Origin: Pseudarthrobacter psychrotolerans
GTDB lineage: Bacteria; Actinomycetota; Actinomycetes; Actinomycetales; Micrococcaceae
Length of the DNA: 64,000 nt
Assembly: GCF_009911795.1 (NCBI RefSeq)
Contig: NZ_CP047898.1
Coordinates: 3,286,001-3,350,000 of the forward strand
Reading direction: 5' to 3'
Part shown: positions 7,772 through 37,132 of the stretch, piece by piece
How positions within the stretch are numbered: the stretch's first letter is position 1
Layout: every line of letters starts with the position of its first letter
Position numbers and translations under genes: made by a program
Notes under the pieces: generated by a model
Database searches by the model: none
Told to the model about the DNA's origin: nothing
What the model saw: the letters and a program-made list of their open reading frames with translations, nothing else

Positions 7772-9259
7772 ATGCTACAGACCCCAGATTCCAGTCTTGA
7801 CACGTGGATGGTCCGGGAGGCTCTCGCCGAGGCCATGATTCCGGTGATCGGCCGGCTGTACCGCGATAACAACGTGGTGACCAGCATTCACGGCCGGAAC
7901 CTGGTCAACAAGTCCACCATGAACATCCTCAAGGCACACCGTTTCGCGCGCCGGGTTGAGAAGGACGAATTGCTCCTGGAGGAGACTGCCCCGATGCTGA
8001 ACACCTTGGCGCAGCTGGAGCTCGGCCCGGCCACGATCGACATCGCCCTCCTGAACCAAAAATTTAAGGAAAAAGGCAACGGTTCCGCCCTCGAGGACTT
8101 CCTCCGCACGGAACTCGCCGGCCTCGTGGGCAAGCGCGGCGCTGATGACCGCAGCAGCACCGACGTCGTGCTCTACGGCTTTGGCCGGATCGGCCGGCTC
8201 CTGGCCCGCCTCCTGATCGAAAAGGCAGGTGGCGGCCACGGCCTGCGCCTGCGTGCCATCGTGGTGCGCAAAGGTTCGGACAAGGACCTCACCAAGCGCG
8301 CCAGCCTCCTGCGCCGCGACTCGGTCCACGGTCCATTCCAGGGCACTATCCGGATCAACGAGGCTGCCAACACCATCACCGCGAACGGCGTCCAGATCCA
8401 GGTCATCTACTCGGACAATCCCGCCACGATCGACTACACCGCTTACGGCATCAAGGATGCCCTGCTGGTGGACAACACGGGCCGCTGGCGTGACGCCGAG
8501 GGTCTGTCCCAGCATCTGCAGAGCAAGGGCGTAGCCCGCGTCCTTCTGACCGCGCCGGGCAAGGGCGACCTGAAGAACATTGTGCATGGCATCAACCACG
8601 GCACCATCGAGGACACGGACCGGATCGTGTCCGCGGCGTCCTGCACCACGAACGCCATCACCCCGGTCCTGAAGGCCATCAATTACAAGTTCGGCGTGCT
8701 TCACGGGCACGTGGAGACCGTCCACTCCTTCACCAACGACCAGAACCTGATCGACAACTTCCACAACGGCGACCGGCGCGGCCGCTCCGCCGCGCTGAAC
8801 ATGGTGATCACCGAGACCGGTGCCGCCAAGGCAGTAGCCAAAGCCCTGCCCGAACTGCTCGGAAAGCTCACCGGCAGCTCCATCCGCGTCCCCACCCCTG
8901 ACGTTTCCCTGGCGATCCTGAACCTGAGCCTCGAAAACGGCACCACCAAGGACGAGATCAATAACTACCTCCGCGAGATGTCGCTGCACTCGGACCTGCG
9001 CAGGCAGATCGATTACATCGATTCGCCCGAAGTGGTTTCCACGGACTTCGTTGGCTCCCGCCGCGCCGGCATCGTCGACGGACTCTCAACCATCTCCAAC
9101 GGCAAGAACCTGGTCCTCTACGTCTGGTACGACAACGAGTTCGGCTACAGCTGCCAGGTAGTCCGGGTCATGGAAGAGATGGCCGGCGTGAACCGGCCGG
9201 TCTTCCCCGCCACGGATGTCGTTGAGGAGGCCATGTCGGTGCTTGCCGCCGTGGGATAG
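7772..9259 (+). CDS. gap: Glyceraldehyde-3-phosphate dehydrogenase, long actinobacterial form
   Basis: 495 aa, about 150 residues longer than classical GapA because of an N-terminal helical extension, as in the second GapDH (GapB type) of corynebacteria and arthrobacters. The Rossmann start is VLYGFGRIGRLLARLL, the catalytic Cys291 lies in SAASCTTNAITP, and the substrate-binding ASLLRRDSVHG and WYDNEFGYS segments are present. It interconverts glyceraldehyde 3-phosphate and 1,3-bisphosphoglycerate; long forms often act in the gluconeogenic direction, possibly with NADP (family knowledge, not visible here). ATG 7772 follows GAAAGGCAG. It heads a plus-strand group with a cupin gene and pfkA facing the RuMP sugar-phosphate operon. 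Confidence 0.9.
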   Translation: MLQTPDSSLDTWMVREALAEAMIPVIGRLYRDNNVVTSIHGRNLVNKSTMNILKAHRFARRVEKDELLLEETAPMLNTLAQLELGPATIDIALLNQKFKEKGNGSALEDFLRTELAGLVGKRGADDRSSTDVVLYGFGRIGRLLARLLIEKAGGGHGLRLRAIVVRKGSDKDLTKRASLLRRDSVHGPFQGTIRINEAANTITANGVQIQVIYSDNPATIDYTAYGIKDALLVDNTGRWRDAEGLSQHLQSKGVARVLLTAPGKGDLKNIVHGINHGTIEDTDRIVSAASCTTNAITPVLKAINYKFGVLHGHVETVHSFTNDQNLIDNFHNGDRRGRSAALNMVITETGAAKAVAKALPELLGKLTGSSIRVPTPDVSLAILNLSLENGTTKDEINNYLREMSLHSDLRRQIDYIDSPEVVSTDFVGSRRAGIVDGLSTISNGKNLVLYVWYDNEFGYSCQVVRVMEEMAGVNRPVFPATDVVEEAMSVLAAVG

Positions 9260-9346
9260 ATCAACCGCTGCTCAATCGAGCCGCGGCCATCACCACCGGC
9301 CCGCCGGAGACGTTACGGGCGGGTGGAAGAAGAAAGGTAGATCCAG

Positions 9347-9709
9347 ATGAGCATTACTTTCCAGCCCAGCGAACTTTTTGAAGAGGACCTGGAAAAGTCC
9401 TGGCTTGGCCCGCCCTTTGCCGACGTGCTGAGCGACGACATTGCAGTGAGGATGTCCGTTCCGTTCACCAGCGATGACTCGCGCATTGTGTCTGGAGTCT
9501 GGGAAGCCGCACCAGGCCTCTCCCGGTGGGAGTTCCTGGATCGCGGTGAGGTGATTAACGTCCTTGAGGGCCGGATGGTGGTCACTGAGGACGGCCGTGA
9601 TCCCGTCACCCTGGAGGCCGGGACTGCCGCCGTCTTCCCCATTGGATGGCGTGGGACTTGGGAGATCCAAGAGCGGATCAGAAAGTTCTTTGTCATCTTC
9701 GCGGCCTGA
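9347..9709 (+). CDS. Cupin_3 (DUF861) family protein
   Basis: A 120-aa single-domain cupin. The core SRWEFLDRGEVINVLEGRMVVTEDG ... LEAGTAAVFPIGWRGTWEI matches the DUF861/EutQ-like cupin fold, without an obvious complete metal-binding His set. It has the same length and layout as the corrected cupin at 39366-39727 (both have xSRWxxL, LxGxMxxTxDxG and FxIF ends), so the two are paralogues. It lies between gap and pfkA inside the RuMP island. The function is unknown; a ribosome binding site GAAAGGTAG precedes the ATG. Confidence 0.75.
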   Translation: MSITFQPSELFEEDLEKSWLGPPFADVLSDDIAVRMSVPFTSDDSRIVSGVWEAAPGLSRWEFLDRGEVINVLEGRMVVTEDGRDPVTLEAGTAAVFPIGWRGTWEIQERIRKFFVIFAA

Positions 9710-9733
9710 CCGCGGGAAATCTGCCGATTCAGA

Positions 9734-9756
9734 CCCGGGGGGACCGTCCCCCCGGG
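9734..9756 (+). terminator. Hairpin between cupin and pfkA
   Basis: A perfect inverted repeat: CCCGGGGGGA pairs with TCCCCCCGGG across a 3-base loop, followed by a T-rich CCTTTCTT. It lies 25 bp after the cupin stop and 32 bp before the pfkA start. It could terminate or attenuate transcription between them. Confidence 0.6.
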
Positions 9757-9787
9757 CCTGACCCTTTCTTATGATTTGAGCCAAAAC

Positions 9788-10811
9788 ATGAAAATTGGAA
9801 TTCTCACCAGCGGCGGCGACTGCCCGGGATTAAACGCCGTTATCCGCGGCGCCGTGTTGAAGGGCATTGCGATCCACGGCCACGAATTTGTGGGTTCCTT
9901 GACGGCTGGCGGGGTGTGGTCGAGGGCGACATCATCGATATTCCACGCATGCTGGTCCGTGGTATCGCCAAGCAGGGTGGCACCATCCTGGGCACCTCCC
10001 GCACCAACCCCTTTGAAAACGGCGGCGGCCCCGAGGTCATCAAGGCCCACATGGACCGCCTCGGCATCGACGCGATCATCGCGATCGGCGGCGAGGGAAC
10101 CTTGGCCGCGGCCAAACGCCTGACCGACGCCGGGTTGAAGATCGTGGGCGTCCCCAAGACCGTGGACAACGACCTCGACGCCACGGACTACACCTTCGGT
10201 TTCGACACTGCGGTGCAGATCGCCACGGAAGCGATCGACCGGCTTCGCACTACCGGAGAATCGCACCACCGCTGCATGATCGCCGAGGTGATGGGCCGCC
10301 ACGTGGGCTGGATCGCATTGCACGCCGGCATGGCGGCCGGCGCCCATGCCATCCTCATTCCGGAGCAGAGCGTCAGCATTGAGCAGATTACCCAGTGGGT
10401 GAAGGAAGCCCACGCCCGCGGCCGCGCACCGCTGGTAGTGGTGGCCGAAGGGTTTGTTCCCGAGCACATGGAATCCCCCACTCCGAGCGCGGGCTGGATA
10501 CCTTTGGCCGTCCCCGGCTCGGTGGGATCGCGGACCAGTTGGCCCCGGAACTGGAAGCCCGGACCGACCTCGAAACCCGGGCCACCATCCTGGGCCATAT
10601 CCAGCGGGGCGGCGTTCCGTCCGCGTTCGACCGCGTCCTGGCAACCCGGCTGGGAATGGCGGCCATCGACTCCGTGGTGGAGGGCTACTGGGGCACAATG
10701 GTTGCCCTGAAGGGCACGGAGATCGAACGCGTGGGCTTCGAGCAGGCCCTGGGCCAGCTGAAGACGGTCCCGCAGAACCGCTACGACGAGGCAGCTGTCC
10801 TGTTCGGCTGA
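9788..10811 (+). CDS. pfkA: 6-phosphofructokinase, interrupted by two apparent frameshifts
   Basis: Three overlapping frames together give a complete 341-aa PfkA if one base is restored near 9895 (a T in TGGGTTCC) and one near 10477 (a C in the C-run after GAAT). Seen are GILTSGGDCPGLNAVIRG, IAIGGEGTLAAAK and PKTVDNDLDATDYTFGFDTA. The Gly in GGEG with the Lys in PKTVDND is the combination found in ATP-using actinobacterial enzymes. It phosphorylates fructose 6-phosphate, feeding the fructose-bisphosphate variant of the RuMP cycle. Both lesions fall in short homopolymers and the rest is perfectly conserved, so sequencing error is likelier than a dead gene. It converges on fba. Confidence 0.85.
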
Positions 10812-10817
10812 TCTTGG

Positions 10818-11837
10818 CTAGAACGTCTTCCCGGCGGAACCGAGCTGCTTGGTTGCCTCGGTGACGCGGGCAGCCATGCCGGCCTCGGCGGAGGCACCCC
10901 AGACGCGGGGGTCGTAGAGCTTCTTGTTGCCCACTTCGCCGTCGATCTTCAGGACGCCGTCGTAGTTCTTGAGCATGTGGTCAACCACCGGACGCGTGAA
11001 GGCGTACTGGGTATCGGTGTCGATGTTCATCTTGATCACGCCGTAGGAAACGGCGTCGGCGATCTCCTGGTCGCTGGAGCCCGAACCGCCGTGGAACACG
11101 AGGTCGAACGGGTTCTCCTTGCCAAGCTTCGCCCCCACCTGCGCCTGGATCTGCTTGAGCAGCTCCGGGCGCAGCTTCACACCGCCCGGCTTGTACACAC
11201 CGTGCACGTTGCCGAAAGTCAGGGCAGTAATGTAACGGCCGTTCTCGCCGGCGCCGAGGGCTTCAATGGTGGCCAGGGCATCCTCGACCGTGGTGTACAG
11301 CTTGTCGTTGATGGCGTTTTCGACGCCGTCTTCCTCGCCGCCCACGATGCCGATTTCAACTTCGAGGATCATCTTCGCGGCGGCAGTGCGCTCCAGAAGT
11401 TCCCGGGCGGTGCGCAGGTTCTCGTTCAGCGGCTCGTGCGAACCGTCCCACATGTGCGAGTTGAAAATCGGGTTGCGGCCGGCCTTGACCTCGGCCTCCG
11501 AAGCTGCCAGCAACGGCAGGACAAAACCGTCCAGCTTGTCCTTGGGGCAGTGGTCGGTAAGCAGCGCGATGTTGACACCGTAGTTCTTGGCCACTTCACG
11601 GGCGAACGCGGCGAACCCTAGCGAACCGGCCACCATGTCCTTGGTGGAGGCGCCGGACCAGTACGCGGCACCGCCGGTGGATACCTGGATGATGCCGTCG
11701 GACTTCGCCTCGACGAACCCGCGCAGCGCGGCGTTCAGCGTCTGCGAGGAGGTGACGTTAACGGCCGGGAATGCATAGCCACCGGCCTTGGCACGGTCAA
11801 TCATCTCGGAGTAGATCTCTGGGGTTGCAATGGGCAT
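10818..11837 (-). CDS. fba: Class II fructose-bisphosphate aldolase
   Basis: 339 aa, the usual class IIA length. Zinc and active-site segments are ALLTDHCPKDKL, MILEVEIGIVGGEEDGVEN, ALTFGNVHGVYKPG and LVFHGGSGSSDQEI. It cleaves fructose 1,6-bisphosphate to dihydroxyacetone phosphate and glyceraldehyde 3-phosphate, the cleavage step of the RuMP cycle. It is the last gene of the minus-strand tkt-tal-rpe-rpiB-fba run and is separated from rpiB by a 156-bp gap with a strong inverted repeat, so its expression may be set separately. Its stop lies 7 bp from the convergent pfkA stop. Confidence 0.96.
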   Translation of the reverse strand: MPIATPEIYSEMIDRAKAGGYAFPAVNVTSSQTLNAALRGFVEAKSDGIIQVSTGGAAYWSGASTKDMVAGSLGFAAFAREVAKNYGVNIALLTDHCPKDKLDGFVLPLLAASEAEVKAGRNPIFNSHMWDGSHEPLNENLRTARELLERTAAAKMILEVEIGIVGGEEDGVENAINDKLYTTVEDALATIEALGAGENGRYITALTFGNVHGVYKPGGVKLRPELLKQIQAQVGAKLGKENPFDLVFHGGSGSSDQEIADAVSYGVIKMNIDTDTQYAFTRPVVDHMLKNYDGVLKIDGEVGNKKLYDPRVWGASAEAGMAARVTEATKQLGSAGKTF

Positions 11838-11893
11838 GGTGACTCCTATGCTGAGTTTCGTCTGCGCCCTTCCCCTCTTGGTCCAGGCGTTCT

Positions 11894-11943
11894 CCGCCTT
11901 CCGGTTGAGTTCAAACAGTAAGGCGGCTTAAACCGGAAGGCGG
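11894..11943 (-). repeat. 13-bp inverted repeat between rpiB and fba
   Basis: CCGCCTTCCGGTT and its exact complement AACCGGAAGGCGG are separated by 24 bp. It lies in the 156-bp gap between the rpiB stop and the fba start. It may be an operator, an attenuator or an RNA stem that uncouples fba from the upstream genes. The long loop and lack of a U-tract argue against a simple terminator. Confidence 0.55.
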
Positions 11944-11993
11944 CTACGTCACAGCCCCGCCGCACGGGACGGAGCTATGACGCAGCCGGGGTT

Positions 11994-12467
11994 TTATTCG
12001 GCAATTTCGCCGGTGGCTTCATAGGTGGCGATTTTGCCGATGCGGCGCTCGTGGCGCTCGGCCTTGCTAAATGGTTCCGCCAGGAATGCCTCGATCAGTT
12101 CGGTGGCCTCCTTAACCGTGTGCTGGCGCCCGCCCACGGCCACCACGTTGGCGTCGTTGTGTTCGCGGGCCAGCTTGGCCGTGTCCAGGTTCCAGGCCAA
12201 GGCCGCGCGCACGCCTTTGACCTTATTCGCGGCGATCTGCTCGCCGTTGCCCGATCCGCCCAGCACTATCCCGAGGGCGTCCACGCCAGCGGCCTGGTCG
12301 GCCGCGACGGCGGACGCCGCTTTGATGCAAAATTCCGGGTAATCGTCCTCGGCGTCATAGGCCGCAGGCCCGTGGTCCACCATCTCGTAGCCGTTGGCAG
12401 ACAGTGCGGTGATGAGGTGGGAGCTGAGCTCCATGCCGGCGTGGTCGGTTGCGATATGAACGCGCAT
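11994..12467 (-). CDS. rpiB: Ribose-5-phosphate isomerase B
   Basis: 157 aa from ATG 12467. ATDHAGMEL opens the sugar-phosphate fold, and LGGSGNGEQIAANKVKG carries the glutamate used by actinobacterial RpiB in place of the enterobacterial cysteine. HNDANVVAVGGR is also typical. It interconverts ribose 5-phosphate and ribulose 5-phosphate, the formaldehyde acceptor for HxlA. It starts 10 bp after rpe ends, with GAAGGA upstream, so the two are co-transcribed. Confidence 0.95.
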   Translation of the reverse strand: MRVHIATDHAGMELSSHLITALSANGYEMVDHGPAAYDAEDDYPEFCIKAASAVAADQAAGVDALGIVLGGSGNGEQIAANKVKGVRAALAWNLDTAKLAREHNDANVVAVGGRQHTVKEATELIEAFLAEPFSKAERHERRIGKIATYEATGEIAE

Positions 12468-12477
12468 GAGTGGTCCT

Positions 12478-13197
12478 TCAGGCTGGTTGGTGTGCGGTGT
12501 GGTTGGGGTGCAGTGATGTTGAGGTGAAGGCGAGCTGGCCGTTCGCGCGCAGCGACTCGATGGCGTCCGCAGGCGACGGCTTTCCGTACACGGCGGATCC
12601 GGCCACAAAGACGTTGGCACCGGCCTCCGCGGCGCGGGTGATGGTTTCCTCCGTAATGCCGCCGTCGACCTGGACGGCCACGTTCACCCCCGAACCCTCG
12701 ACCGCCGCGCGGGCACGGCGGATCTTGGGCAACATGACATCCAGGAATGCCTGGCCGCCAAAGCCCGGCTCCACCGTCATGATCAACAGCATGTCCAGTT
12801 CGGGGAGCATGTCCAGGTACGGTTCCACCGGGGTGGCCGGGCGGAGTGCCATGCCTGCTTTAGCCCCGCGAGCGCGAAGTTCCCGGGCGAGCTTGATGGG
12901 GGCCCCGGACGCCTCGACGTGGAATGTCACCGAGCTCAGGCCGGCGTCGGCGAACTGTGGCGCCCAGCGGTCCACGTTGGAAATCATCAGGTGGGCGTCC
13001 AACGGCACGGGGCTGACCTTTTGCAGCCGTTCCACAACAGGCAGGCCAATGGTCAGATTCGGCACGAAGTGGTTGTCCATGACATCCACGTGCACGGCAT
13101 CGGCGTTGCTGATGCGGGCCAGTTCGGCCTCGAGGTTGACGAAGTCGGCCGAGAGGATGCTGGGGTTGATGCAGCACTTCAAAGGTGATGCGGACAT
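12478..13197 (-). CDS. rpe: Ribulose-phosphate 3-epimerase
   Basis: 239 aa from ATG 13197 behind GAAAGGCAG; longer in-frame starts give unrelated Pro/Ser-rich sequence. The TIM-barrel metal and phosphate sites are visible: [42 protein letters not shown] and QVDGGI. It interconverts xylulose 5-phosphate and ribulose 5-phosphate, closing the acceptor-regeneration part of the RuMP cycle. It lies 37 bp downstream of tal. Confidence 0.96.
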
Positions 13198-13234
13198 GGT
13201 GTCTGCCTTTCGGTAGCGGTCAGAGCTCGGTGGG

Positions 13235-14356
13235 TCAGGATGCTTTCCGGGCGGTGGCGAGGGCGCCTTCGACGTCGGCCAGCAGTTCCTTCCAGCTGGT
13301 GACAAACTTCTCCAGGCCTTCTGATTCGAGGAGTGCGACGACCTCGTTGTAGGAAATGCCCAGGGCGTCCAGTGCGTACAGCACGGCCTTGGACTCGGCG
13401 TAGGTGCCGGAGATCGTGTCACCGGTGACGACGCCGTGGTCGAAGGTGGCGTCGAGGGTCTTCTCCGGCATGGTGTTTACGACGCCGGGCGCTGCCAGTT
13501 CGGTGACGTACAGGGTGTCGGGGTAGGCCGGGTCCTTGACGCCGGTGGAGGCCCACAGGGGACGCTGCGGGAGCGCGCCGGCTGCGGCCAGGACCGCCCA
13601 GCGCTCGGTGGAGAAGAGCTCTTCGTAGACCTGGTAGGCCAGGCGTGCGTTGGCCACGCCGGCCTTGCCCTTGAGCGCCTTGGCTTCGTCGGTGCCCAGC
13701 GCGTCGAGGCGCTTGTCGATCTCGCTGTCCACACGGGAGACGAAGAACGATGCCACCGAGTGGATCCTGGACAGGTCGTGGCCGTTCTCCTTGGCCTGCT
13801 CAAGGCCGGACTGGAAGGCGTTGATGACCGCGCGGTAGCGCTCCAGGGAGAAGATCAGGGTCACGTTGACGCTGATGCCTTCGCCCAGGGTTGCAGTGAT
13901 GGCCGCGAGGCCTTCGAGCGTTGCCGGGATCTTGATGAGGACGTTGTCCTTGTCGACCTTCTTGTACAGGTTCTTGGCCTCAATGACGGTGCCTTCGGTG
14001 TCCCAGGCCAGACGGGGGTCGACTTCGATGGAGACTCGGCCGTCAACGCCGTTAGTGGCGGCGGCAACCGGGGCGAAGAGGTCGCAGGCGTCGGCGACGT
14101 CGGTGGTGGTGATCTCGAAGATGGTCTCCTCGACGCCGGCGCCCTGCGCGGCAAGTTCGGCGATCTTTGCATCGTAGTCAGTGCCGGAAGTGATCGCGGC
14201 CTGGAAGATGGACGGGTTGGTGGTCACGCCGACGACGTTCTTTTCGTCGATGAGCTTCTGCAGGCTGCCGCTGGCGAGCCGCTCGCGGGAAAGGTCGTCC
14301 AGCCAGATGGACACACCGGCGTCGGACAGCTGTGCGGTGGGTGTTGCGTTGGTCAT
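13235..14356 (-). CDS. tal: Transaldolase
   Basis: 373 aa, as in other actinobacterial transaldolases. Segments are [25 protein letters not shown], the Schiff-base lysine in [22 protein letters not shown], and [16 protein letters not shown]. It transfers dihydroxyacetone units between sugar phosphates. Transaldolase inside this operon indicates the TA variant of the RuMP rearrangement phase rather than sedoheptulose bisphosphatase. It follows tkt after 105 bp. Confidence 0.96.
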
Positions 14357-14461
14357 GGCTTCTGCTTCTTCCTTCGAAAATGATGAACAGTTGAGCGCCG
14401 GCGCCGCGGGACGCCCCCCATGAGGCCGTCCCGCGGCGCCGGCCGCAATGCAGTTGAGCGG

Positions 14462-16615: not shown

Positions 16616-16639
16616 GGTATGTCCTTTTTGAATCTGGTC

Positions 16640-16735: not shown

Positions 16736-16778
16736 CTTTTGGGTTGGGTGGACGGTGCCGTCCCGGTATGCTGTCCGG

Positions 16779-18086: not shown

Positions 18087-18126
18087 CCCGTGTAGGAACC
18101 CCGCTGACCGGCCCCCGCAAAGAAGG

Positions 18127-18157: not shown

Positions 18158-18169
18158 TGTGCTGCCTGA

Positions 18170-25419: not shown

Positions 25420-25434
25420 GCGTCAATCGGCTAA

Positions 25435-26739: not shown

Positions 26740-26759
26740 GATTTGTCCCTTCCATTCGG

Positions 26760-27874: not shown

Positions 27875-28578
27875 AGCCCACCACAGAAGTCGTTCATGCT
27901 GCCACGGCCCTCACCTCGTGGATTAGCGGCGTCTGCACGGAGACCGCGAAACTCTCCGGCTCCGTTGCCGCGCTGCTTGAACGAAATCTCGCCGGCAAGT
28001 CCACGATCGACAAGGCTGCTCTGTCCGGACTGGACGAACTCTCACGGCAGTTCCTGGCGGAGAACACTATTGCTGTCGGAGCCGGGACCTTCTTCGCTGC
28101 GGCATCCGTTGAGGAGGGCGGCCGATCTTGGGAATGGTGGTCCCGCAAGGAATCCGGCGCCGTCGGAAGGCTTGATTTTGACCTGACGCCAGGCAGCAAT
28201 CGATATTACGACTATGAGAAGTTGCCGTTCTTTTCGACCGCTGCTTCCACAGGTGAGCAGACCTTTTGGGGACCGTATGTCGACTATCTCGGCTTCGAGG
28301 AATACATCCTTACATTCACGGCACCATTTTCCGTCCACGGGAACTTTGCCGGCGTAGCGGGATGCGACATTCGGGTCAAGGACCTGGAACCCCTCATCAT
28401 GCCAAACCTGCGTGTCATCCCAGGCGATGCCGCTCTCATCAACGCCAGCAACCGCGTCATTCTCGGCAACTCGGGCAGGTACCTGGTTGGCGAGCGGATC
28501 AAATCCGGATCCCAGGACCAACATCGGCTGGCTCTGGATGTTCCCCACTTGGGGCTGTCCCTGATCTATACCGCCTAG
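27871..28578 (+). CDS. Cache-domain protein coupled to the FadR-type regulator
   Basis: 235 aa with no signal peptide or membrane helix. Sequence such as WEWWSRKESGAVGRLDFDLTPGS, DYEKLPFFSTAASTGEQTFWGPYVDYLG and LTFTAPFSVHGNFAGVAGCDI fits a single small-molecule-binding cache (PAS-like) domain of the kind usually found outside the membrane in receptors. Here it appears cytoplasmic and alone, translationally coupled (ATGA) to the GntR gene. The pair may be a two-part sensor in which the cache protein binds an amine and modulates the regulator; that is inference. Confidence 0.75.
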   Translation: MKPTTEVVHAATALTSWISGVCTETAKLSGSVAALLERNLAGKSTIDKAALSGLDELSRQFLAENTIAVGAGTFFAAASVEEGGRSWEWWSRKESGAVGRLDFDLTPGSNRYYDYEKLPFFSTAASTGEQTFWGPYVDYLGFEEYILTFTAPFSVHGNFAGVAGCDIRVKDLEPLIMPNLRVIPGDAALINASNRVILGNSGRYLVGERIKSGSQDQHRLALDVPHLGLSLIYTA

Positions 28579-29089
28579 CCTCAGACCCCCGCATGTCCTC
28601 GGGCACAGAATCGAGTTCTCAAGCCTGGGCTGGAACATGTCTCGTGAGACGTGGGCAACCGACGCAGCAAAATTGGCGTCCGTAAAAGCTATCGCAATAG
28701 AGCTTTTAAGCTGTAACCTCTGGAAGTGATCTGTTTCACACGAGATGCCGCGGGACAGCCACGGTCCTCCGACACCGGAGGGAGAGCTTCTCCGACTTTG
28801 ACACACCCTCGTCCAAGTCGCGCGGGTTCGATGTCTTCCCGAGCTGCCCCATGGCGCACTTGCCCGCTTAGCAAGCATGGCTTTATTCATGCGCCACGAA
28901 GGAGCCCGTCTCGTGTTCTCGCCGGCCCGCCGCCGTCATGCAGCTGCAGGATCGCGCTGCCGATTGGCACCGTAGTACCACTCGCCGGGCTGACCAGTTG
29001 TGTATCACCGCCACTTTAGATATCCACAACCTAAGTTGCATAACTAACAAAGTCAGAGACGACTTTAAGTAGTTTCAAGGGAGATTTTT
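28579..29089. other. 511-bp non-coding gap before the APC permease
   Basis: No supported gene. It holds GTCCGTAAAAGCTA at 28689, a Crp-type dyad at 28726, and a short palindrome AAAGTC-N6-GACTTT (29048-29065) just before AAGGGAG, the ribosome binding site of the permease. GC content falls towards the permease. Confidence 0.5.
28726..28739. promoter_or_regulatory. Crp/GlxR-type site upstream of the APC permease
   Basis: GTGATCTGTTTCAC matches GTGA-N6-TCAC, in the wider dyad AGTGATCTGTTTCACA. It is one of five such sites upstream of the amine genes. It lies 36 bp after a GTCCGTAAAAGCTA tract like the one before the amine oxidase promoter, and 350 bp before the permease start. Confidence 0.6.
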
Positions 29090-30574
29090 ATGAGTGAAAA
29101 TCGTTTGGATGAAGCCGATCACCTGAAAAGGTCGATCAACTGGAAGCAGGGTGCGGCCATCGCGCTGGGTGTGCCCATGCTGATTCTGCCATCGCTGGGC
29201 TACCTGCCGATGTATGTGTCTGCCGCGGCAATTCTTATCTGGGGATTATCGGTCCTTCAGGGTTTCATGCAGAGCACCGCGTACGCCGAAATGGCTACCA
29301 CCTTTCCCAAGGCCTCCGGTCTGCCGGGTTTTGCGCAGCACGTATTCCGCACCGAAAACTTCAAGGGCAAGTACGACAAGGGCAAGCTGATCGGCGGCTT
29401 CTCCGCCTGGAGCTATTGGTTTGGCTGGAACCCGATACTGGCGATCTTCTCAATCCTGGTCGGCGGCTACCTTCATGGGCTGTTTCCGGTGCTGGGCGAG
29501 ACCTTTACCGAGTATCAGCTCGCGCTGTTCTCAGGTGTGGTGATCTTCACCGGGTTGTTCATAGTGAACTGGTTCGGCCTCAAGGACGGCGCCATCCTGG
29601 GTTACATCCTGGCGGCCATATCCCTGATACCGCTGGTTATCCTGGCCGTGGCGCCGTTTGCTACCGGACACGTTGAACTGACCAATATCACCGGCAGCTG
29701 GTGGCCAACTGACTGGGCTTGGGATATGCACCATATCCTGATGCTCTTTGGCATCTTTGCGATTGCGCAGTGGAGTGCCTGCGCGTGGGAAACAGCAGCC
29801 ATCTACGGCCCCGAATACAAGAACCCTTCCAAGGATGTCCCCAAGGCGCTGCTCGCCTGCGGCATCATCTGCTTCGTATTGTATGTACTGCTGCAAACTG
29901 CAGTGATCGGCGTGCTTGGTGTAGAGGGTGTACAGGCCGAGCCTGTATCCCCGCTGATTCCGGTGGCCCAAGCCGTCTTCGGCGAAGCCGGTTCAATAGT
30001 CACGATCATCATGCTGATCGCCGCCATGATCCTCATCATCCAGACGGCCTACCTGGGTTCCTCCCGCGCCATGCACTCCATGTCGACGGAAGGCAACCTT
30101 CCACGGGTTTTCGGCAAAACCAACCGCCACGGGACCCCGTTTGTTGCCATGCTGGTCATCGGAGCCTTCAACCTGGTGCTGATCTCCATGGGAAATGCCG
30201 CGGCAATTCTTGCAGCCTCAGCAATTGGTTACACCTGCGCCAACGGCATCAGCCTGTTCGCCTATGTCCGAGCCAAGAAGCACCCCGCCTTCGCCAACCT
30301 GGAAAGGCCATTCAAGGCCCCCAAGGGCTGGAAGAACGTCGCCATGATCTTCGGCCTGTTCAATGTGCCACTGTGTGTGGTCGGTGTGGTTTACCTGAAC
30401 AGCCTGGAAATCGGCTGGACCTCAACCTGGGTTGGCTTCCTCGTATTGTCGCTCTATCTACCCATCTGGCTGTATTCCCAAAACGAATCGCGACGTGCGA
30501 AATCCAAGGCAGCCACGGCTTTGTCTTCAGATCACAAAGCAGCAGAACCGGAAAAGGTTCTGGATCTCAGGTAA
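29090..30574 (+). CDS. APC-superfamily amino acid/amine permease
   Basis: 494 aa with about 12 membrane helices and APC features (WKQGAAIALGVPMLILPSLGYLPMY, AYLGSSRAMHSMSTEGNLPRVFGK). The first two-thirds use less G/C-biased codons than the neighbours, and the protein reads like proteobacterial permeases, which suggests acquisition from outside the genus. AAGGGAG precedes ATG 29090. By position between the regulator pair and the dmm genes, it probably imports methylated amines, amino alcohols or a related substrate. Confidence 0.85.
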   Translation: MSENRLDEADHLKRSINWKQGAAIALGVPMLILPSLGYLPMYVSAAAILIWGLSVLQGFMQSTAYAEMATTFPKASGLPGFAQHVFRTENFKGKYDKGKLIGGFSAWSYWFGWNPILAIFSILVGGYLHGLFPVLGETFTEYQLALFSGVVIFTGLFIVNWFGLKDGAILGYILAAISLIPLVILAVAPFATGHVELTNITGSWWPTDWAWDMHHILMLFGIFAIAQWSACAWETAAIYGPEYKNPSKDVPKALLACGIICFVLYVLLQTAVIGVLGVEGVQAEPVSPLIPVAQAVFGEAGSIVTIIMLIAAMILIIQTAYLGSSRAMHSMSTEGNLPRVFGKTNRHGTPFVAMLVIGAFNLVLISMGNAAAILAASAIGYTCANGISLFAYVRAKKHPAFANLERPFKAPKGWKNVAMIFGLFNVPLCVVGVVYLNSLEIGWTSTWVGFLVLSLYLPIWLYSQNESRRAKSKAATALSSDHKAAEPEKVLDLR

Positions 30575-30799
30575 CGGAAGCTGCGCTTAGACCGTCCCGG
30601 CCAAAGTGTCCTGGTTGCAACGGTCCTGATCCGCCGAGCGTTGTCGCGGACGGCGCAGTGGAGGTAGCCGCCAGGGCCCACCGGCTGGACAGGGGGCGGT
30701 GCTTGTTTCACGGCGGACGCCGTGAGTCCGTTCCTGAGGTTTCCCTGGCCTGTCGAGCATGCAGAGGGAAACAAACCTCAAATCTCTCGGCTTAACATC

Positions 30800-30871
30800 T
30801 AAAAAAGACTGGACTAGATGAATTACGTCCCGTAGCTTTGCAGATGAGACGAACAACGTGACTCCTGTCAC
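30800..30871 (+). promoter_or_regulatory. Promoter block of the cupin-dmmABC operon
   Basis: A 72-bp block aligns base for base with the block upstream of the copper amine oxidase (33951-34021): an A-tract TAAAAAAG, then GACTA.ATGA.TTA, CGTAGCTT.GC, GAACA.CGTGAC and the dyad GTGACTCCTGTCAC (30858-30871; GTGA-N6-TCAC). It is 157 bp upstream of the cupin start. Shared regulation of the two operons is implied. Confidence 0.68.
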
Positions 30872-31027
30872 ACCAATCGAACTCGGAGCAGAGCTCGGCT
30901 GGCCGTACAGAACACGCCCCTCCCCAAGCCCCAGTCGGCGCCTGGGTGATCTTCCGCCCCGTCTCAAATGCACCAAGAGATCAACAGTTCTAACAACTCG
31001 TTCACAACACTATTCATAGGAGAGACC

Positions 31028-31408
31028 ATGGAAACCACCCTCGTAGGAACACTGAGCAAGGCCGGCTCCATCCACAAGGTAGAAAACGGTTTCATCGGAC
31101 TGCCGTCGATGAACGAGCCCGGGACGGTCGCTGCGATCGGCGACTCCCTCCACAACCCCGAGGGTTCGGTCATGTGCGCCGGATTCTTCGAACTGAAGGC
31201 TTCCGCGCCGTTGGTGTACACGTACACGTACGACGAAATGAAGGTCGTCATCAAGGGTGAGTTCATCCTCACGGACCAGACGACAGGAGAAGTCACTCAC
31301 GCGAAGGAACGCGACGTGCTGTTCTTTCCCAAGGGCACCACTGTCAAGTTTGAGACCCCTGAGTATGGCTTGGGGTTCTTCGCCGGCGACCGCACCTTCG
31401 CACCCTAG
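31028..31408 (+). CDS. EutQ-like cupin, first copy
   Basis: 126 aa from ATG 31028 behind ATAGGAGAGACC. METTLVGTLSKAGSIHKVEN opens it; the cupin core includes TYTYDEMKVVIKGEFILTDQTTG and KERDVLFFPKGTTVKFETPE, as in ethanolamine-utilisation EutQ-type cupins. A copy at 47369-47749 has almost the same protein. It lies 8 bp before dmmA in the dimethylamine operon, so a role in amine breakdown (scavenging, isomerising or sensing an intermediate) is likely but unknown. Confidence 0.85.
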   Translation: METTLVGTLSKAGSIHKVENGFIGLPSMNEPGTVAAIGDSLHNPEGSVMCAGFFELKASAPLVYTYTYDEMKVVIKGEFILTDQTTGEVTHAKERDVLFFPKGTTVKFETPEYGLGFFAGDRTFAP

Positions 31409-31416
31409 GACCCACC

Positions 31417-31899
31417 ATGCGTTCCGCGTCCACGCCACCTTCAGCAGGCGCCGGCCTGGAACCGGGTTTCCGCGGTGTCATCTGTGCCTCGTTCGGCATG
31501 GATGACACTGCGGATCACAACACCGGTGGCCAGCCCAGGCATAACCTCCGTTTTTCATCTGCAAACCCGGAAACCCTCGCGGACCTGAAGTCTGTTCTTG
31601 AACGGTCGCGCGTCGGGGTCCGTCTCATACTCGCTGGCCCTCCGGCCGACGTCCACGCAGCCGCTGCCGCCGCCGCGAGTTGTGGACTACTGGACGAGGA
31701 TCTGACTCTCCTGTGTGATGAGGTCGGACCCCGGGTTGTCTTCTGCGGGCATTGCCGCACCGCCAACACAACTGATCAGGCAATCGGCTCCGAAGTGGAG
31801 TGTCAAGGATGCGCTACCACCCTGGCCTTCACTGATCATTTTTCCCGTCGAATTGGCGGGTACCTGGGATTCTCAGCCCATGCCGAGGAGGCAGCATGA
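31417..31899 (+). CDS. dmmA: Dimethylamine monooxygenase subunit DmmA
   Basis: 160 aa. The C-terminal third carries two cysteine pairs, CGHC and CQGC, followed by TDHFSRRIGGYLGF, the DmmA signature; the N-terminal part resembles a reduced nucleotide-binding fold (VGVRLILAGPPADVHAAAAAA). In characterised systems DmmA works with a reductase (DmmB) and a heme-dependent catalytic subunit (DmmC). It overlaps dmmB by 4 bp. The start ATG is degraded to ACG in the second copy at 47.3 kb. Confidence 0.85.
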   Translation: MRSASTPPSAGAGLEPGFRGVICASFGMDDTADHNTGGQPRHNLRFSSANPETLADLKSVLERSRVGVRLILAGPPADVHAAAAAAASCGLLDEDLTLLCDEVGPRVVFCGHCRTANTTDQAIGSEVECQGCATTLAFTDHFSRRIGGYLGFSAHAEEAA

Positions 31900-32873
31900 C
31901 CGCCACAGCGCTCCAGCCCCGTGTCCACCCGGCGGTGGAAGGCGGCCTCCTGCTCGATGTGACCAACCTCAGCAGGCAGACGGCGTCGATTGTCAGCATC
32001 ACCTTTGGTGATCCGTTGGGGGAACCGCTGCCTTCCTACGTCCCGGGAAGCCACCTTGTGGTCCAATGCGGCGAAGGCGCCAATGCCTATTCGCTCACCG
32101 GTTCAGGCAGCGCCCCTTCCGAATACACCATCTCGGTCCTCCAATGCGAAGATGGCGCCGGCGGCTCCAAGGCTATGCATCGGCTCGCCATCGGGGACCG
32201 TGTTCGGGTGTCGCGTCCCCGCAGTGCCTTCGCCCCAGCGGCAACAGCGACGCATCATCTGCTTGTTGCCGCAGGAATCGGAATCACGCCGGTGCTCTCA
32301 CACGCCCGGTACGCTGCCGAATGGGGCACACCGGCGTCTCTGATCTACACTCATCGCCCCGGGGCTGGCGCCCACGTGGCAGAAGCGAGGGAACTGCTCG
32401 GACCGGCCCTAACAGAATGCACCGACCGCGGCAGTTTCCAGAAAGTTCTGGCAGAAAAGCTCACCACCCAGAAACTGGGAACCCACCTCTACGTCTGCGG
32501 GCCCGCCGCCTTCATGGAGACCGTCCTCGGGCAGGCCCGGGAGCTTGGCTGGCCAAAGGGCCTGCTGCATTCAGAAGCCTTTGGTGCGGCCGAACTGGAC
32601 GCGGGCCAACCGTTCGCGGTGAACCTGGCGCGCAGCGGCATCAAATTGGAAGTTCCGGCCGGCGTCTCGTTGCTGGACAGCCTCGAAAAAGCAGGAAAAA
32701 GCATCCCCAACATGTGCCGCAAAGGCATCTGCGGCGAATGCAGCCTGACAGTACTTCGAGGGGCACCTCAGCACCGGGATCTCTACCTGAGCGACCAGGA
32801 AAAGGCCGAGAACACCACCATGATGTGCTGCGTTTCACGCAGCCTGGATGAAGAATTGGAGTTGGACCTTTGA
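31896..32873 (+). CDS. dmmB: Dimethylamine monooxygenase reductase DmmB
   Basis: 325-aa phthalate-dioxygenase-reductase type protein: flavin domain (SLTGSGSAPSEYTISV), NAD domain (LLVAAGIGITPVLSHARYA, HLYVCGPAAFMETV) and a C-terminal plant-type [2Fe-2S] ferredoxin with C-x4-C-x2-C (CRKGICGEC) and a fourth Cys in MMCCV. It passes electrons from NAD(P)H to DmmC. ATGA overlap with dmmA and TTGA overlap with dmmC indicate tight coupling. Confidence 0.9.
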   Translation: MTATALQPRVHPAVEGGLLLDVTNLSRQTASIVSITFGDPLGEPLPSYVPGSHLVVQCGEGANAYSLTGSGSAPSEYTISVLQCEDGAGGSKAMHRLAIGDRVRVSRPRSAFAPAATATHHLLVAAGIGITPVLSHARYAAEWGTPASLIYTHRPGAGAHVAEARELLGPALTECTDRGSFQKVLAEKLTTQKLGTHLYVCGPAAFMETVLGQARELGWPKGLLHSEAFGAAELDAGQPFAVNLARSGIKLEVPAGVSLLDSLEKAGKSIPNMCRKGICGECSLTVLRGAPQHRDLYLSDQEKAENTTMMCCVSRSLDEELELDL

Positions 32874-33867
32874 GTATCACCACCGACAAAGACCCTGACA
32901 CCGCCGTCCTCCCGGAACGGATCAGACGCTTTCCCTTTCCCTTTACCGCTGACACCTACCGCTACAGCGCCAATGTCGAACCGTCCCGTAAAACAGTGGA
33001 GACTGCAGCCGGCGCCTGGGGCGGCCAGCTGCTGGACATCGACGAACATTACCTTTCAGACGTCAAGGAACGCGACGAGGTGCTGGACAGGGACCCCTCC
33101 CGCCTGCAGGTCCTCCCGCATATGCGGCCCGCCGTTTGGGACGCCATCACCACCCTGCTGCCCGCCATGGCGGAAGAAAACCCGGGCACGATGTCCTTCC
33201 ACCGGGAAGGAAACCTCTGCCGCTGGCGGAACACCCTGCAAAACCTCGACGTGGCCTTCATCGTCGGCGAGGACACTTCGCTGCCCATGGGTCCATTGCG
33301 GTTCCTGGGCAGCCAGATCCAGGACGACCTGGTGTTTCTTGACCAGCGCGAAGATGCGCTCTGGCTCGACGCCGGTCTTGTCACGTTCGCCGCAGACTGG
33401 TCCGTGGGATTCGACGTCGGCATGAAATTCCTCGAAGTCCATCACCCCGTCCCACGGGTCAAGGAAGAAAAAATCGTGTCCCGGGCCGAGCAATTCCTCA
33501 TGCGGCTCCAACCCGGGGAGCAATACCGCCGAACCAACTGGACCCTGACCATAGACCGGCGCCTGGACACCTCCACCGAAAGCTATCCCAACTGGGCCCC
33601 GGACCGCGGCACCATAGCCGACGACCCTGCCCTGCCGGACAGGGTCCACCTGCGGGTGGAAGTTCAGCATATGATCCGACTCCCACACTCGGGAGCCGTG
33701 TTGTTCCTGGTCCGGACCTACCTTCTGCCCCTCTCCGATATAGCCCAGGTGCCCCTTTGGGGGAGAACATGGGCGGGGTGCTGGCAGAACTTCCAGAAGA
33801 CATGGCCGAGTACAAAGGCTTCAGCCGCTACCGCAAAGCCGCATCTGATTGGCTGCTGGCCAACTAA
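32870..33867 (+). CDS. dmmC: Heme-dependent oxidative N-demethylase DmmC, one apparent frameshift
   Basis: DUF3445-family catalytic subunit, TTG start overlapping the dmmB stop. The frame is open to about residue 296 (VQHMIRLPHSGAVLFLVRTYLLPL), then shifts at a G-run (33759-33763). Restoring one G gives LWGENMGGVLAELPEDMAEY and a stop at 33865-33867, a complete 332-aa protein. The enzyme oxidatively demethylates dimethylamine to methylamine plus formaldehyde. The lesion matches the homopolymer losses seen elsewhere in the window, so the gene is probably intact in the cell. Confidence 0.85.
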
Positions 33868-33950
33868 CCAGCGGCCCCGTCCCGCTCCGGGGGCCCATTC
33901 GAACGGGACTCGACTGCTGCGCGATAGCTTATGTCACAAAAGAATGTCCG

Positions 33951-34021
33951 TAAAAAAAGCTAGACTAAATGATTTATTTGGCGTAGCTTAGCTGCAAAGA
34001 GGAACACGTGACCGGAGTCAC
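33951..34021 (+). promoter_or_regulatory. Promoter block of the copper amine oxidase gene
   Basis: A 71-bp block homologous to that upstream of the cupin-dmm operon, starting at the A-tract TAAAAAAAGC and ending in the dyad GTGACCGGAGTCAC (34008-34021). The block is preceded by GTCCG and lies 236 bp from the ATG, so a long leader is expected. The rest of the 389-bp gap shows nothing else. Confidence 0.68.
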
Positions 34022-34256
34022 GCTAACGGAGTTCAGGGTGGAGCTTCACCAGCCCTTAGCTCCTTAAGGGATACCGGTTTGCCGGGCCAGGAGCTTGCAT
34101 GCAAAGTGCAGCAAGTCCAGGCTCGGCATCCTCCAGGCAGGTTTCAAGCACCTGAGTGGTCTGCCAAGTCTTCGCCAAACCCCACTCATGTCACGGGGCA
34201 ATTCGCCTATCAGGCCATAGGGATCTCATCCTCAAGAAAGAACCAAGGAGAAAACC

Positions 34257-36203
34257 ATGACTCTCAACACTGAAATCGACACCGAGGTAGGGGTTGGGTA
34301 CCCTCTCGATCCGCTGTCCCGCGCCGAGATTTCCCGTGCGGCTTCAATCCTGAAGGATGGCCCGGCCGCGGCAGAAACGTTCCGCTTCATCAGTATTGAG
34401 CTGCGCGAGCCGGACAAGGAACTGCTCCGGTCCGGCGCTAAGACGGTGCGCGAGGCAGATGCAGTTCTCGTCAACCGTGCCGAGGGACGTTCCTACGAGG
34501 CGATTGTCGACCTTGACTCGGGCATCGTCTCGAAGTGGACGCAGTTAGCTGCCAACATTCATCCTCCCTTCATGCTGGACGAATTTGCCGAGGGTGAAGA
34601 GAGCTGCCGAAAGAACCCCGAGGTCCAGGCCGCCCTCGCTAAGCGGGGCATCACAGACATGGGCCTGGTCTGCTTCGAACCCTGGTCCGTGGGCTACTTC
34701 GGTGAAGACAACGAGGGCCGGCGCCTGATGCGCGCCCTGGTCTTCGTCCGCGAGGAGGCCGATGACAGCCCGTACGCGCACCCGATCGAGAACTTCATCG
34801 TCATCGTCGACCTCAACTCCGGCGACGTCGTAAAAGTCGAGGACGACCAGGCGATCCCCGTACCCAGTGCCAGCGGCAACTACCTGCCCAAGTACGTCGG
34901 ACCGGCCCGCACCGACCTCAAGCCCATCTCCATCACCCAGCCCGAAGGCGCGTCCTTCAAGGTCACCGGAAACCACGTCCAGTGGGCCGACTGGTCTTTC
35001 CGTGTCGGTTTCACTCCCCGGGAAGGCCTGGTCCTGCACCAGCTCCGCTTCCGCAACAAAGACACCGAACGCCCCGTCATCAACCGGGCATCACTATCCG
35101 AAATGGTCGTCCCCTACGGTGACACCGCCCCCGTACAGGCAAAGAAGAACGCCTTCGACTCCGGCGAATACAACATCGGCAACATGGCCAACTCCCTCAA
35201 ACTCGGCTGCGACTGCCTGGGCGAAATCAAATACTTCGACGGCATCACCGCCGACAGCCACGGCAACCCGCTGACCATCGAGAACGCCATCTGCATGCAC
35301 GAGGAAGACGATTCCATCCTCTGGAAGCACTTCGACTTCCGCGAGGGCACCGCCGAAACCCGGCGCAGCCGCAAGCTCGTGATCTCCTTCATCGCCACCG
35401 TCGCGAACTACGAGTACGCCTTCTACTGGCACCTCTTCCTCGACGGCAGCATCGAGTTCCTGGTCAAAGCCACCGGTATCCTCTCCACCGCCGGCCAGAA
35501 GCCCGGCGAGAAGAGCCCCTACGGCCAGACCCTGAACAACGACGGACTCTACGCGCCGATCCACCAGCACATGTTCAACGTCCGCATGGACTTCGAAATC
35601 GACGGCCCGCGCAACGCCGTCTACGAAGTGGACATGGAAATCCCCGAAGACAACCCCACCCACACCGCGTTCATGGCTGTGGACCGGCTGCTCGAGACCG
35701 AACAGGCCGCAATCCGCAAGACCGACTCTTCCAAGCACCGCTTCTGGAAAATCGCCAACCGCGACAGCAGAAACATCGTGGACGAGCCCGTTGCGTACCG
35801 CCTCATCCCAACCAACGGCATCCAACTGGCCGCCGGCGACGAATCCTACGTCAGCAAGCGCGCACAGTTCGCCCGCAACAACCTCTGGGTCACCGCCTAC
35901 GACCGGACCGAACGCTTCGCGGCCGGCGAGTTCCCGAACCAGGCCACCGGCGCCGACGACGGCCTGCACATCTGGACCCAGGCAGACCGAAACATCGTCG
36001 ATCAGGACCTCGTGGTCTGGTACACCTTCGGCATGCACCACGTCGTCCGCCTCGAAGACTGGCCCGTCATGCCCCGCCAGAACATCGGCTTCATGCTCGA
36101 ACCCCACGGCTTCTTCGACCAAAACCCCACCCTCAACCTCCCCAGCAACATCTCAGCACCCGCCTCCGCGGACGCCGGGCAGTGCTGCGGAACGGAAAAA
36201 TGA
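34257..36203 (+). CDS. Copper amine oxidase (primary-amine oxidase)
   Basis: 648 aa, close in layout to Arthrobacter globiformis amine oxidase. The tyrosine converted to topaquinone is Tyr385 in ANYEYAFYWHLFLDG; copper ligands are His436 and His438 (HQHMF) and a C-terminal His (594 or 595) in GMHHVVRLEDWPVMP. SLKLGCDCLGEIKYFDG and ENAICMHEED are further family marks. It oxidises primary amines to aldehyde, ammonia and H2O2; beside dmmABC and the RuMP genes, methylamine to formaldehyde is the expected reaction. AAGGAG precedes the start. No signal peptide, so cytoplasmic. Confidence 0.95.
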   Translation: MTLNTEIDTEVGVGYPLDPLSRAEISRAASILKDGPAAAETFRFISIELREPDKELLRSGAKTVREADAVLVNRAEGRSYEAIVDLDSGIVSKWTQLAANIHPPFMLDEFAEGEESCRKNPEVQAALAKRGITDMGLVCFEPWSVGYFGEDNEGRRLMRALVFVREEADDSPYAHPIENFIVIVDLNSGDVVKVEDDQAIPVPSASGNYLPKYVGPARTDLKPISITQPEGASFKVTGNHVQWADWSFRVGFTPREGLVLHQLRFRNKDTERPVINRASLSEMVVPYGDTAPVQAKKNAFDSGEYNIGNMANSLKLGCDCLGEIKYFDGITADSHGNPLTIENAICMHEEDDSILWKHFDFREGTAETRRSRKLVISFIATVANYEYAFYWHLFLDGSIEFLVKATGILSTAGQKPGEKSPYGQTLNNDGLYAPIHQHMFNVRMDFEIDGPRNAVYEVDMEIPEDNPTHTAFMAVDRLLETEQAAIRKTDSSKHRFWKIANRDSRNIVDEPVAYRLIPTNGIQLAAGDESYVSKRAQFARNNLWVTAYDRTERFAAGEFPNQATGADDGLHIWTQADRNIVDQDLVVWYTFGMHHVVRLEDWPVMPRQNIGFMLEPHGFFDQNPTLNLPSNISAPASADAGQCCGTEK

Positions 36204-36252
36204 ACCGACCAAGCTGACTAAATAGAGCTGACGAAGAAACAACCCTAAAAAC

Positions 36253-36294
36253 AGGCGGTCCCCGGTGCTGTGGCAGCAGCACCGGGGACCGCCT
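36253..36294 (+). terminator. 18-bp stem terminator after the amine oxidase
   Basis: AGGCGGTCCCCGGTGCTG pairs perfectly with its complement over a 6-base loop, 49 bp after the amine oxidase stop. No T-tract follows, so some read-through into the DUF5134 gene is possible. Confidence 0.8.
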
Positions 36295-36326
36295 GCACCT
36301 AACCCAAACCCAGTAGTGAGAGCGTG

Positions 36327-36980
36327 ATGCGCGTGTTCAATATCCCCGCAATTACCTGGGCCCTCACGGCCATTCTGTTGCTGAGCGGAAGCTACCACTT
36401 CCTGCAAGCCACAAAGTCTCACCAGCGCACGGACCAGATCAACAAAAGCCTCCATGCACTCATGAACGTCCTCATGGCTGCCATGTTATGGAACCTCGTG
36501 CCGTCAACGATGCTGGCCCAGATCGCAGTCCTCACCGGCGCGGCGCTGTGGTTTGTCATACAGGCCGTTGCCCGGCCGGAATTCAAAACTCTCTGCGCGG
36601 GTAGCCAAGGCCGGCTGAAATGCCTGTACCACAGCCTCAGCATGGCCGGCGCTGCAGTCATGATTGCAATGATGGGTAAGAGCACCACCGGCCACGTGCC
36701 GGCAGGCGGAATGTCACTGCCGAACGCACATCACTCGATGGCCGCGGCAGCCCCCGGCACGGCCGCAGCATCCTTGGATCACTCACCCGGCCTGGCGATC
36801 CTGCTGACAGTATTATTCGGAGCTGCGTCGGTGGTTTTCTTCCTCCTTCTGGCGCGTTTCCGGCTAACGAAAACCGCTCTCCGCGACTCGGCGGCTTCGC
36901 GGCGTTCCGTCCGTGGAGAACACGGGCTGGAAGCGCTTGGTGCCTCCGCCATGGCCATGATGTTTGCCACCATGTCATGA
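36327..36980 (+). CDS. DUF5134-type integral membrane protein
   Basis: 217 aa with about six hydrophobic helices. It is rich in Met and His in the loops (HVPAGGMSLPNAHHSMAAA, MAMMFATMS), a composition often seen in proteins handling copper. It lies directly after the copper amine oxidase and its terminator, so a copper-supply or cofactor role is possible but unproven. The start is ATG 36327 (GTG 36324 is equivalent). It overlaps the next small gene by ATGA. Confidence 0.7.
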   Translation: MRVFNIPAITWALTAILLLSGSYHFLQATKSHQRTDQINKSLHALMNVLMAAMLWNLVPSTMLAQIAVLTGAALWFVIQAVARPEFKTLCAGSQGRLKCLYHSLSMAGAAVMIAMMGKSTTGHVPAGGMSLPNAHHSMAAAAPGTAAASLDHSPGLAILLTVLFGAASVVFFLLLARFRLTKTALRDSAASRRSVRGEHGLEALGASAMAMMFATMS

Positions 36981-37132
36981 CCCTTGCAATTGATCGTCCA
37001 CAGGTAACACAGGCCGTCGCGAAAACCCGGGCCGTATCCAACGCCGATCGATCCATCCTCATAGAAAAGACTTGCGACTCAAGTCTCGAGGCCGATGAGT
37101 GCTTTTTCTGCACAGGACCTGAGACCGACTGA
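36977..37132 (+). CDS. 51-aa cysteine-containing protein coupled to the DUF5134 gene
   Basis: ATG 36977 overlaps the DUF5134 stop (ATGA), a translation-coupling arrangement used repeatedly in this window. The peptide MTLAIDRPQVTQAV ends EKTCDSSLEADECFFCTG; its three cysteines, two as CFFC, could bind a metal or form a disulfide. A terminator hairpin begins 12 bp after its stop. I recognise no family. Confidence 0.55.
   Translation: MTLAIDRPQVTQAVAKTRAVSNADRSILIEKTCDSSLEADECFFCTGPETD

Follow-up and report, generated by a model that had tools for sequence, protein, structure and literature searches.

A 64,000-nt stretch of the Pseudarthrobacter psychrotolerans genome (GCF_009911795.1; NZ_CP047898.1, positions 3,286,001-3,350,000, forward strand; 5.17 Mb in three contigs), hereafter the window, carries a genomic island in which genes of the ribulose monophosphate (RuMP) cycle cluster with genes for amine oxidation. 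Read along the forward strand, the block consists of gap-cupin-pfkA (+), fba-rpiB-rpe-tal-tkt (-, read from tkt), luxR (+), fdhF-MBL-mscR-opcA-zwf-hxlA-hxlB (-, read from hxlB), and, again on the + strand, gntR-cache, a permease gene, a cupin gene, dmmABC, and an amine oxidase gene. Coordinates and profile matches are collected in Table 1. A 45-bp element, named here the RuMP element, is found upstream of hxlB, tkt, and gap, and luxR, which encodes a LuxR-type protein, adjoins the copy before tkt. Judging from the sequence, the RuMP genes of the island likely form one regulon, in which the LuxR-type protein would bind the shared element and activate three units.

The RuMP element is composed of a 16-bp imperfect palindrome, CTAYCC-N4-GGGTAG, followed by a second block, AACCRTC..GCGTT, and then by CCTACCC. 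When the window was scanned with a position weight matrix (PWM) built from 81 elements, only three places scored above 4 bits, and these are the elements before hxlB, tkt, and gap. The same three sites ranked top when training used 50 hxlB elements of other records or 32 native, non-island ones. All three window promoters display a -10-like ATGGAT 65 nt after the first base of the palindrome, and the dinucleotide AT occurs at exactly that distance in 77 of 86 elements. A plain identity score of 22/45 was rejected as proof of the element, as it is reached by 86 of 88 upstream regions but also by 442 of 8800 shuffles. We therefore relied on scores of at least 28, which 63 of the 88 regions reach (the best shuffle scores 27), and on matrices whose training left out the test sites. 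Across the genus (101 genomes, including that of P. psychrotolerans), the core pattern with up to two mismatches identified 38 sites in 21 genomes, exactly two of them in P. psychrotolerans, and a reversed control identified none. Thirty-six of these sites precede hxlB or tkt (33 among the 35 distinct sites of one listing, and three others recorded separately); the two exceptions have hxlA ~1 kb off and opcA downstream. A gap-type pattern identified 23 sites in 16 of the 101 genomes (control, 0; P. psychrotolerans, 1), which precede gap (12 sites), hxlB (5), hxlA (2), cupin (1), or no RuMP gene (3).

The distribution of luxR was determined in the same 101 genomes. It is present in 60, all of which contain hxlB; the others contain neither gene (38 genomes) or hxlB alone (three genomes). 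These counts leave out a 72-residue luxR fragment (G055) and, among 70 genomes with hxlB matches, seven with weak matches only (~20-30 bits), the retained ones scoring >230 bits. As assessed with a matrix partly trained on the same genome group, 48 of 53 hxlB alignments have a positive upstream score, and the five misses are the hxlB genes of G019 and G046, one hxlB fragment, one of the G079 copies, and one G065 hxlB. In the best 80 of 98 luxR loci, the gene is divergent to hxlB in 40 and to tkt in 31. Copies of the element lie ahead of the same genes in Cryobacterium, Flexivirga, Mycobacteriaceae, and other Micrococcaceae. In the first three groups, 14 of 14 loci have their top hit, by a matrix trained on Micrococcaceae, at an element ahead of hxlB or tkt. 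In a tree of the regulator, built by a quick method without bootstrap and with SH-aLRT supports, the eight Mycobacteriaceae rows (support 99) are nested with Cryobacterium, Flexivirga, and island-type Micrococcaceae in a group of 47 (98), and a native group of 32 stands apart, weakly joined (52).

The LuxR-type protein has 422-443 aa, depending on the choice of start. It harbors a GerE DNA-binding domain (PF00196, 68.3 bits; cut-off, 23.5), which is found in 21 of 21 members, and a HisKA_3-type kinase-core fold. The phosphoacceptor His of HisKA_3 kinases is carried by a RELHD-type motif, and that position is occupied by T, V, or I in 81 of 81 and 42 of 42 aligned rows (spanning chiefly residues 185-349). 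For the N-terminal part, the predicted succession of helices and strands suggests that it may be GAF-like. The conserved residues noted are Cys49, Lys55, and Cys291, the last of which is invariant both in the 42-row set, from loci fetched around hxlB, and in the 81-row set, where one of the retrieval peptides already included Cys291 and the invariance is thus partly circular. The protein resembles a VraS/DesK-type kinase lacking the phosphoacceptor His and fused to a NarL-type DNA-binding domain, and it is probably cytosolic. Unlike VraS/DesK kinases and their LiaR/DegU regulators, it holds both parts in one polypeptide, and the 15 Pfam families that the 21 members match do not include a receiver domain (PF00072), in a search whose HMMER filters drop very weak matches. 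The HxlR family (MarR/DUF24 winged helix) is likewise absent from these 15 families.

We propose that this one-piece regulator would bind the CTAYCC-N4-GGGTAG palindrome, and probably also the AACCRTC..GCGTT block, ahead of three units with putative operon limits: hxlB-hxlA, which would fix formaldehyde, tkt-tal-rpe-rpiB-fba, which would regenerate the acceptor, and gap-cupin-pfkA, in which gap would take triose phosphate onward. The anatomy of the promoters points to binding and activation, since the palindrome lies far upstream and there is no obvious -35 box. An alternative is that another regulator, or a sigma factor, reads the element as a conserved RuMP promoter, with luxR a mere neighbor. 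This would fit G045, an hxlB-only genome that has the element but no luxR in its draft of ~140 contigs, and the binding of the LuxR-type protein is itself deduced. We consider it unlikely, because luxR never occurs without hxlB (0 of 60), 71 of the 80 loci have it divergent to hxlB or tkt, and the other two hxlB genomes without luxR (G019 and G046) also have no element before hxlB. In addition, LuxR/NarL-type dimers are expected to bind palindromic sites, which the first part of the element fits.

Several observations besides G045 weigh against regulation by the LuxR-type protein. Two hxlB genes, in G065 (L049) and one of the copies in G079 (L030), lack the element even though their genomes contain luxR, and nine of the 80 named luxR loci have no divergent hxlB or tkt. 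By the strict patterns, only 23 of the 60 luxR genomes have a site; the elements of the others are more diverged and were seen only at fetched loci, with matrices partly trained on the same group. Three loci (L199, L212, and L219) have gap-type elements without a recognizable RuMP gene downstream, perhaps remnants. The matrix scan of the P. psychrotolerans genome covered the window only. As for the protein, the match of the kinase part to PF02518 is weak (E = 0.19 in the window; found in 16 of 21 members, best 0.013), and the predicted structure model has a pTM of 0.47.

In Bacillus, hxlAB (hps, phi) is regulated by HxlR, a MarR/DUF24 protein activated by formaldehyde (PMC7835342, PMC8879981), which it senses via a Cys-Lys bridge (PMC7835342). 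The candidate regulator is like HxlR in its predicted targets, the hps-phi genes of the RuMP pathway. It belongs to an unrelated DNA-binding family, and its element also precedes the tkt and gap units, whereas HxlR is known, in the available text of these papers, for hxlAB. By analogy with HxlR, we guess that the protein probably responds to formaldehyde or to one of its products. More tentatively, and with doubt prevailing, it could represent a formaldehyde sensor of a new class, with a two-component pair merged into a single cytosolic polypeptide whose dead DesK/VraS-type kinase core and conserved Cys49 (with Lys55/Lys56) and Cys291, together with a GAF-like domain, might sense formaldehyde and switch on its fixation and acceptor regeneration jointly. 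Sensors of this class might travel on one-carbon (C1) islands between families of actinobacteria, with Candidatus Mycobacterium methanotrophicum among the carriers.

For the RuMP enzymes Hps-Phi, the table of bacterial formaldehyde regulators in a 2022 review lists, in its available part, HxlR of Bacillus alone (PMC8879981). A report on a methanotrophic Mycobacterium isolate names the RuMP cycle and, in its accessible text, no regulator (PMC12366331). No published actinobacterial RuMP regulator, LuxR-type or other, was found in the literature searched, a weak negative given that few subscription journals were covered. A regulator with a matching DNA site for the RuMP cycle, seemingly common to many actinobacteria, thus looks undescribed. 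The present analysis names a regulator candidate, an exact DNA site, and three predicted target units, which could supply synthetic methylotrophy in actinobacteria with an inducible part.

The region is a mobile C1-metabolism island of the kind published for Arthrobacter and Mycobacterium. In a congener (G013), window positions 3-7434 are followed, ~2.7 kb on, by 48145-48872 and 53364-59436 in unchanged order; 50819-52119 is displaced. The GC content is 0.57-0.62 at 26-40 kb of the window versus 0.66-0.71 at 1-8 kb, and genes of the IS110 and IS21 types lie within the island. Lateral acquisition is evident from the insertion relative to G013 and from the nesting of mycobacterial regulator rows in a group of several families. 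The P. psychrotolerans genome contains a second full copy of tkt (C1:930770), second copies of tal, zwf, and fba, and an intact pfk (C1:2068699). Among 18 genomes searched, seven seen with the island and 11 chosen as island-free, tal is present in 2-3 copies and zwf in three in 7 of 7 island genomes; tal is single in 11 of 11 island-free genomes, and zwf has two copies in 10 of these 11 and three in G070. Copy numbers of fba and pfk were discarded as island markers because they do not separate cleanly (fba, 3-4 matches in the seven versus 2-5 in the 11; pfk varies). The initial annotation, made from the sequence of the window, had envisaged dedicated copies of the sugar-phosphate genes, with core metabolism into which hxlAB was inserted as the alternative should these be the only genomic copies and syntenic in non-methylotrophic relatives; the LuxR-type regulator and the RuMP element do not figure in it. 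The absence of the block from G013 and the extra tkt, tal, zwf, and fba copies favor an island.

The same annotation had suggested that the block would be a self-contained, possibly transferable growth module on dimethylamine and, implicitly, something new. The island borders and dedicated gene copies agree with this, but it is improbable, more so than the involvement of another regulator. Both gnd and a weak pgi-family match lie outside the window, so that the block leans on core genes, and pfkA and dmmC are broken in this assembly. Moreover, such islands were published in 2015 for Arthrobacter 31Y, 35W, and MA-N2, with exchange with Mycobacterium argued (McTaggart et al.; PMC5023230). Those islands share, in the available text, Mao, Hps, Hpi, Zwf, OpcA, Tkt, Tal, Rpe, Rpi, Fba, Pfk, Gap, and a EutQ-like cupin, many with neighboring gene numbers; compared with them, the window island also has, between luxR and opcA, mscR, the MBL hydrolase, and the FdhF-type protein. 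The main text of that paper, as available, does not contain the word LuxR, but Figure 2 of the paper colors regulatory genes. The Tmd described there (ferredoxin/flavodoxin-like, with an NAD(P) motif) probably corresponds to dmmB.

The promoters of hxlB and tkt look like copies of one another. Although the two genes are unrelated and 10 kb apart, they share 90 nt upstream at 90% identity, and the local alignment of their leaders in the window extends into the first codons. The island thus seems to place acceptor regeneration under the promoter of formaldehyde fixation, which suggests promoter sharing as the way in which it tied core sugar-phosphate genes to this step. Differences between hxlB and tkt elements amount to 13.6 of 70 within a genome versus 17.3 between genomes (permutation p = 0.0002, 11 genomes), in keeping with joint evolution of a copied promoter and a single regulator. 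The idea that tkt captured the hxlB promoter together with its first codons was dropped; a GTGAATCCGACAG-like start is found in 26 of 35 tkt leaders versus only 6 of 39 hxlB leaders, so that direction and reach of the copying are not settled. Duplication devoid of regulatory meaning would also make elements closer within a genome, but it is a very remote explanation, given that the elements are kept in Flexivirga, Mycobacteriaceae, and Cryobacterium and that the gap element has diverged yet retains core and spacing. A structured RNA leader (riboswitch or attenuator), suspected from complementary CCCCTT../..AAGGGG stretches and in line with the position 5' of coding regions and the likeness down to the first codons, is just as implausible, since conservation peaks upstream of the -10-like box, and therefore mostly ahead of the likely transcript start, with fixed spacing, no Rfam match at the shared stretch, and no RNAalifold consensus structure in 22 hxlB and 31 tkt leaders (a weak test, shuffles also giving zero).

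Table 1. Features of the window (positions within the 64,000 nt)
Feature	Position	Strand	Evidence or remark
Genomic island, approximate borders	7435..48145		~2.7 kb there in congener G013
RuMP element before gap-cupin-pfkA	7516..7560 (palindrome 7516-7531)	+	PWM 33.4 bits; in no training set
gap	7772..9259	+	start 7772 or 7619; NF006139, 806.6 bits
pfkA	9788..10811 (approx.)	+	PF00365; three reading frames
fba, class II	10818..11837	-	TIGR01520
rpiB	11994..12467	-	TIGR02133
rpe	12478..13197	-	TIGR01163
tal, island copy	13235..14356	-	TIGR00876
tkt, island copy	14462..16615	-	TIGR00232; first codons like those of window hxlB
RuMP element before tkt	16702..16746 (palindrome 16731-16746)	-	PWM 75.1 bits; 48.4 with 32 native-type hxlB promoters as training
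LuxR-type regulator	16779..18086	+	start 16779 or 16818; GAF-like + kinase-like + GerE (N-terminal part putative); divergent to tkt
FdhF/YdeP-type oxidoreductase	18170..20524	-	TIGR01701; molybdopterin protein
MBL-fold hydrolase	20635..21255	-	TIGR03413, 80 bits, below cut-off
mscR, S-(hydroxymethyl)mycothiol dehydrogenase	21252..22358	-	TIGR03451, 660 bits (cut-off 512.9)
opcA	22402..23391	-	TIGR00534, 225.1 bits, below cut-off 256.25
zwf, island copy	23388..24944	-	TIGR00871
hxlA, 3-hexulose-6-phosphate synthase	25435..26058	-	TIGR03128, 253.9 bits (cut-off 200)
hxlB, 6-phospho-3-hexuloisomerase	26140..26739	-	TIGR03127, 237.3 bits (cut-off 160); proposed start GTG 26739
RuMP element before hxlB	26826..26870 (palindrome 26855-26870)	-	PWM 77.1 bits; 67.3 trained on other records' hxlB elements only
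GntR/FCD regulator	27113..27874	+	PF00392, PF07729
PDC/dCache-domain protein	27871..28578	+	PF22673, 36.7 bits
APC-type permease	29090..30574	+	PF13520
Second palindrome, before cupin-dmmABC	30857..30872	+	CGTGACNCCNGTCACG-type, 1 mismatch
dmmA, dmmB, dmmC	31417..33861	+	NF041259, 101.6 bits (cut-off 60); reductase-type matches; PF11927, 192 bits
Second palindrome, before amine oxidase	34007..34022	+	CGTGACNCCNGTCACG-type, 0 mismatches
Copper primary-amine oxidase	34257..36203	+	NF008559, 896 bits

Profile searches bear out most of the enzyme families named in the initial annotation (gap, fba, rpiB, rpe, tal, tkt, mscR, opcA, zwf, hxlAB, dmmAB, and the copper amine oxidase), with zwf, rpe, rpiB, tal, tkt, fba, and gap each above the cut-off of at least one NCBIfam model. 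Although pfkA and dmmC were correctly recognized, neither is intact in this assembly, pfkA having two frame breaks and dmmC one, at ~33760. Both are open in relatives, with intact frames of 341 and 348 aa (dmmC in L028, L033, and L036), and the breaks may be assembly errors or real decay. By profile matches, DmmA, reductase, and HODM-alpha-like subunits occur together, with an interrupted frame in dmmC. Of the formaldehyde oxidation branch put forward there, mscR holds; the supposed formate dehydrogenase is of the FdhF/YdeP type and the MBL hydrolase scores below every curated cut-off shown, which leaves the substrates of both uncertain. Just past hxlA and ahead of zwf there is a perfect GC-rich inverted repeat (25357-25377), perhaps a terminator, and zwf may therefore have a promoter of its own.

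A search for motifs shared by eight intergenic regions yielded one usable pair, a second palindrome, CGTGACNCCNGTCACG. With up to two mismatches it occurs in the window only before cupin-dmmABC and the amine oxidase gene. Six of 16 other loci scanned have a palindrome of this type, lying before the amine oxidase gene in L033 and L105 (both G083), L035, and L036; L035 also has one before cupin, and in L223 and L118 no listed gene accompanies it. Two of these sites gave the motif, and no shuffle control applies to it. The palindrome may belong to the GntR regulator. The GntR/FCD and PDC/dCache genes overlap at their ends, and this pair, an unusual one for a GntR protein, is kept in several island relatives.

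Near the right end of the island, transposase genes of the IS110/IS21 types are followed by a gene for a BCCT choline-type transporter (39867-46630). In another genome (G015:C11, L223), the same left flank adjoins other island-like stretches (gntR, cache, BCCT, and cupin regions), a hint that the site may be a hot spot for insertion. Outside the island, a match to the Rfam 5' ureB sRNA (RF02514, 75.4 bits) lies at 58336-58622, antisense to the urease alpha gene (57063-58775).

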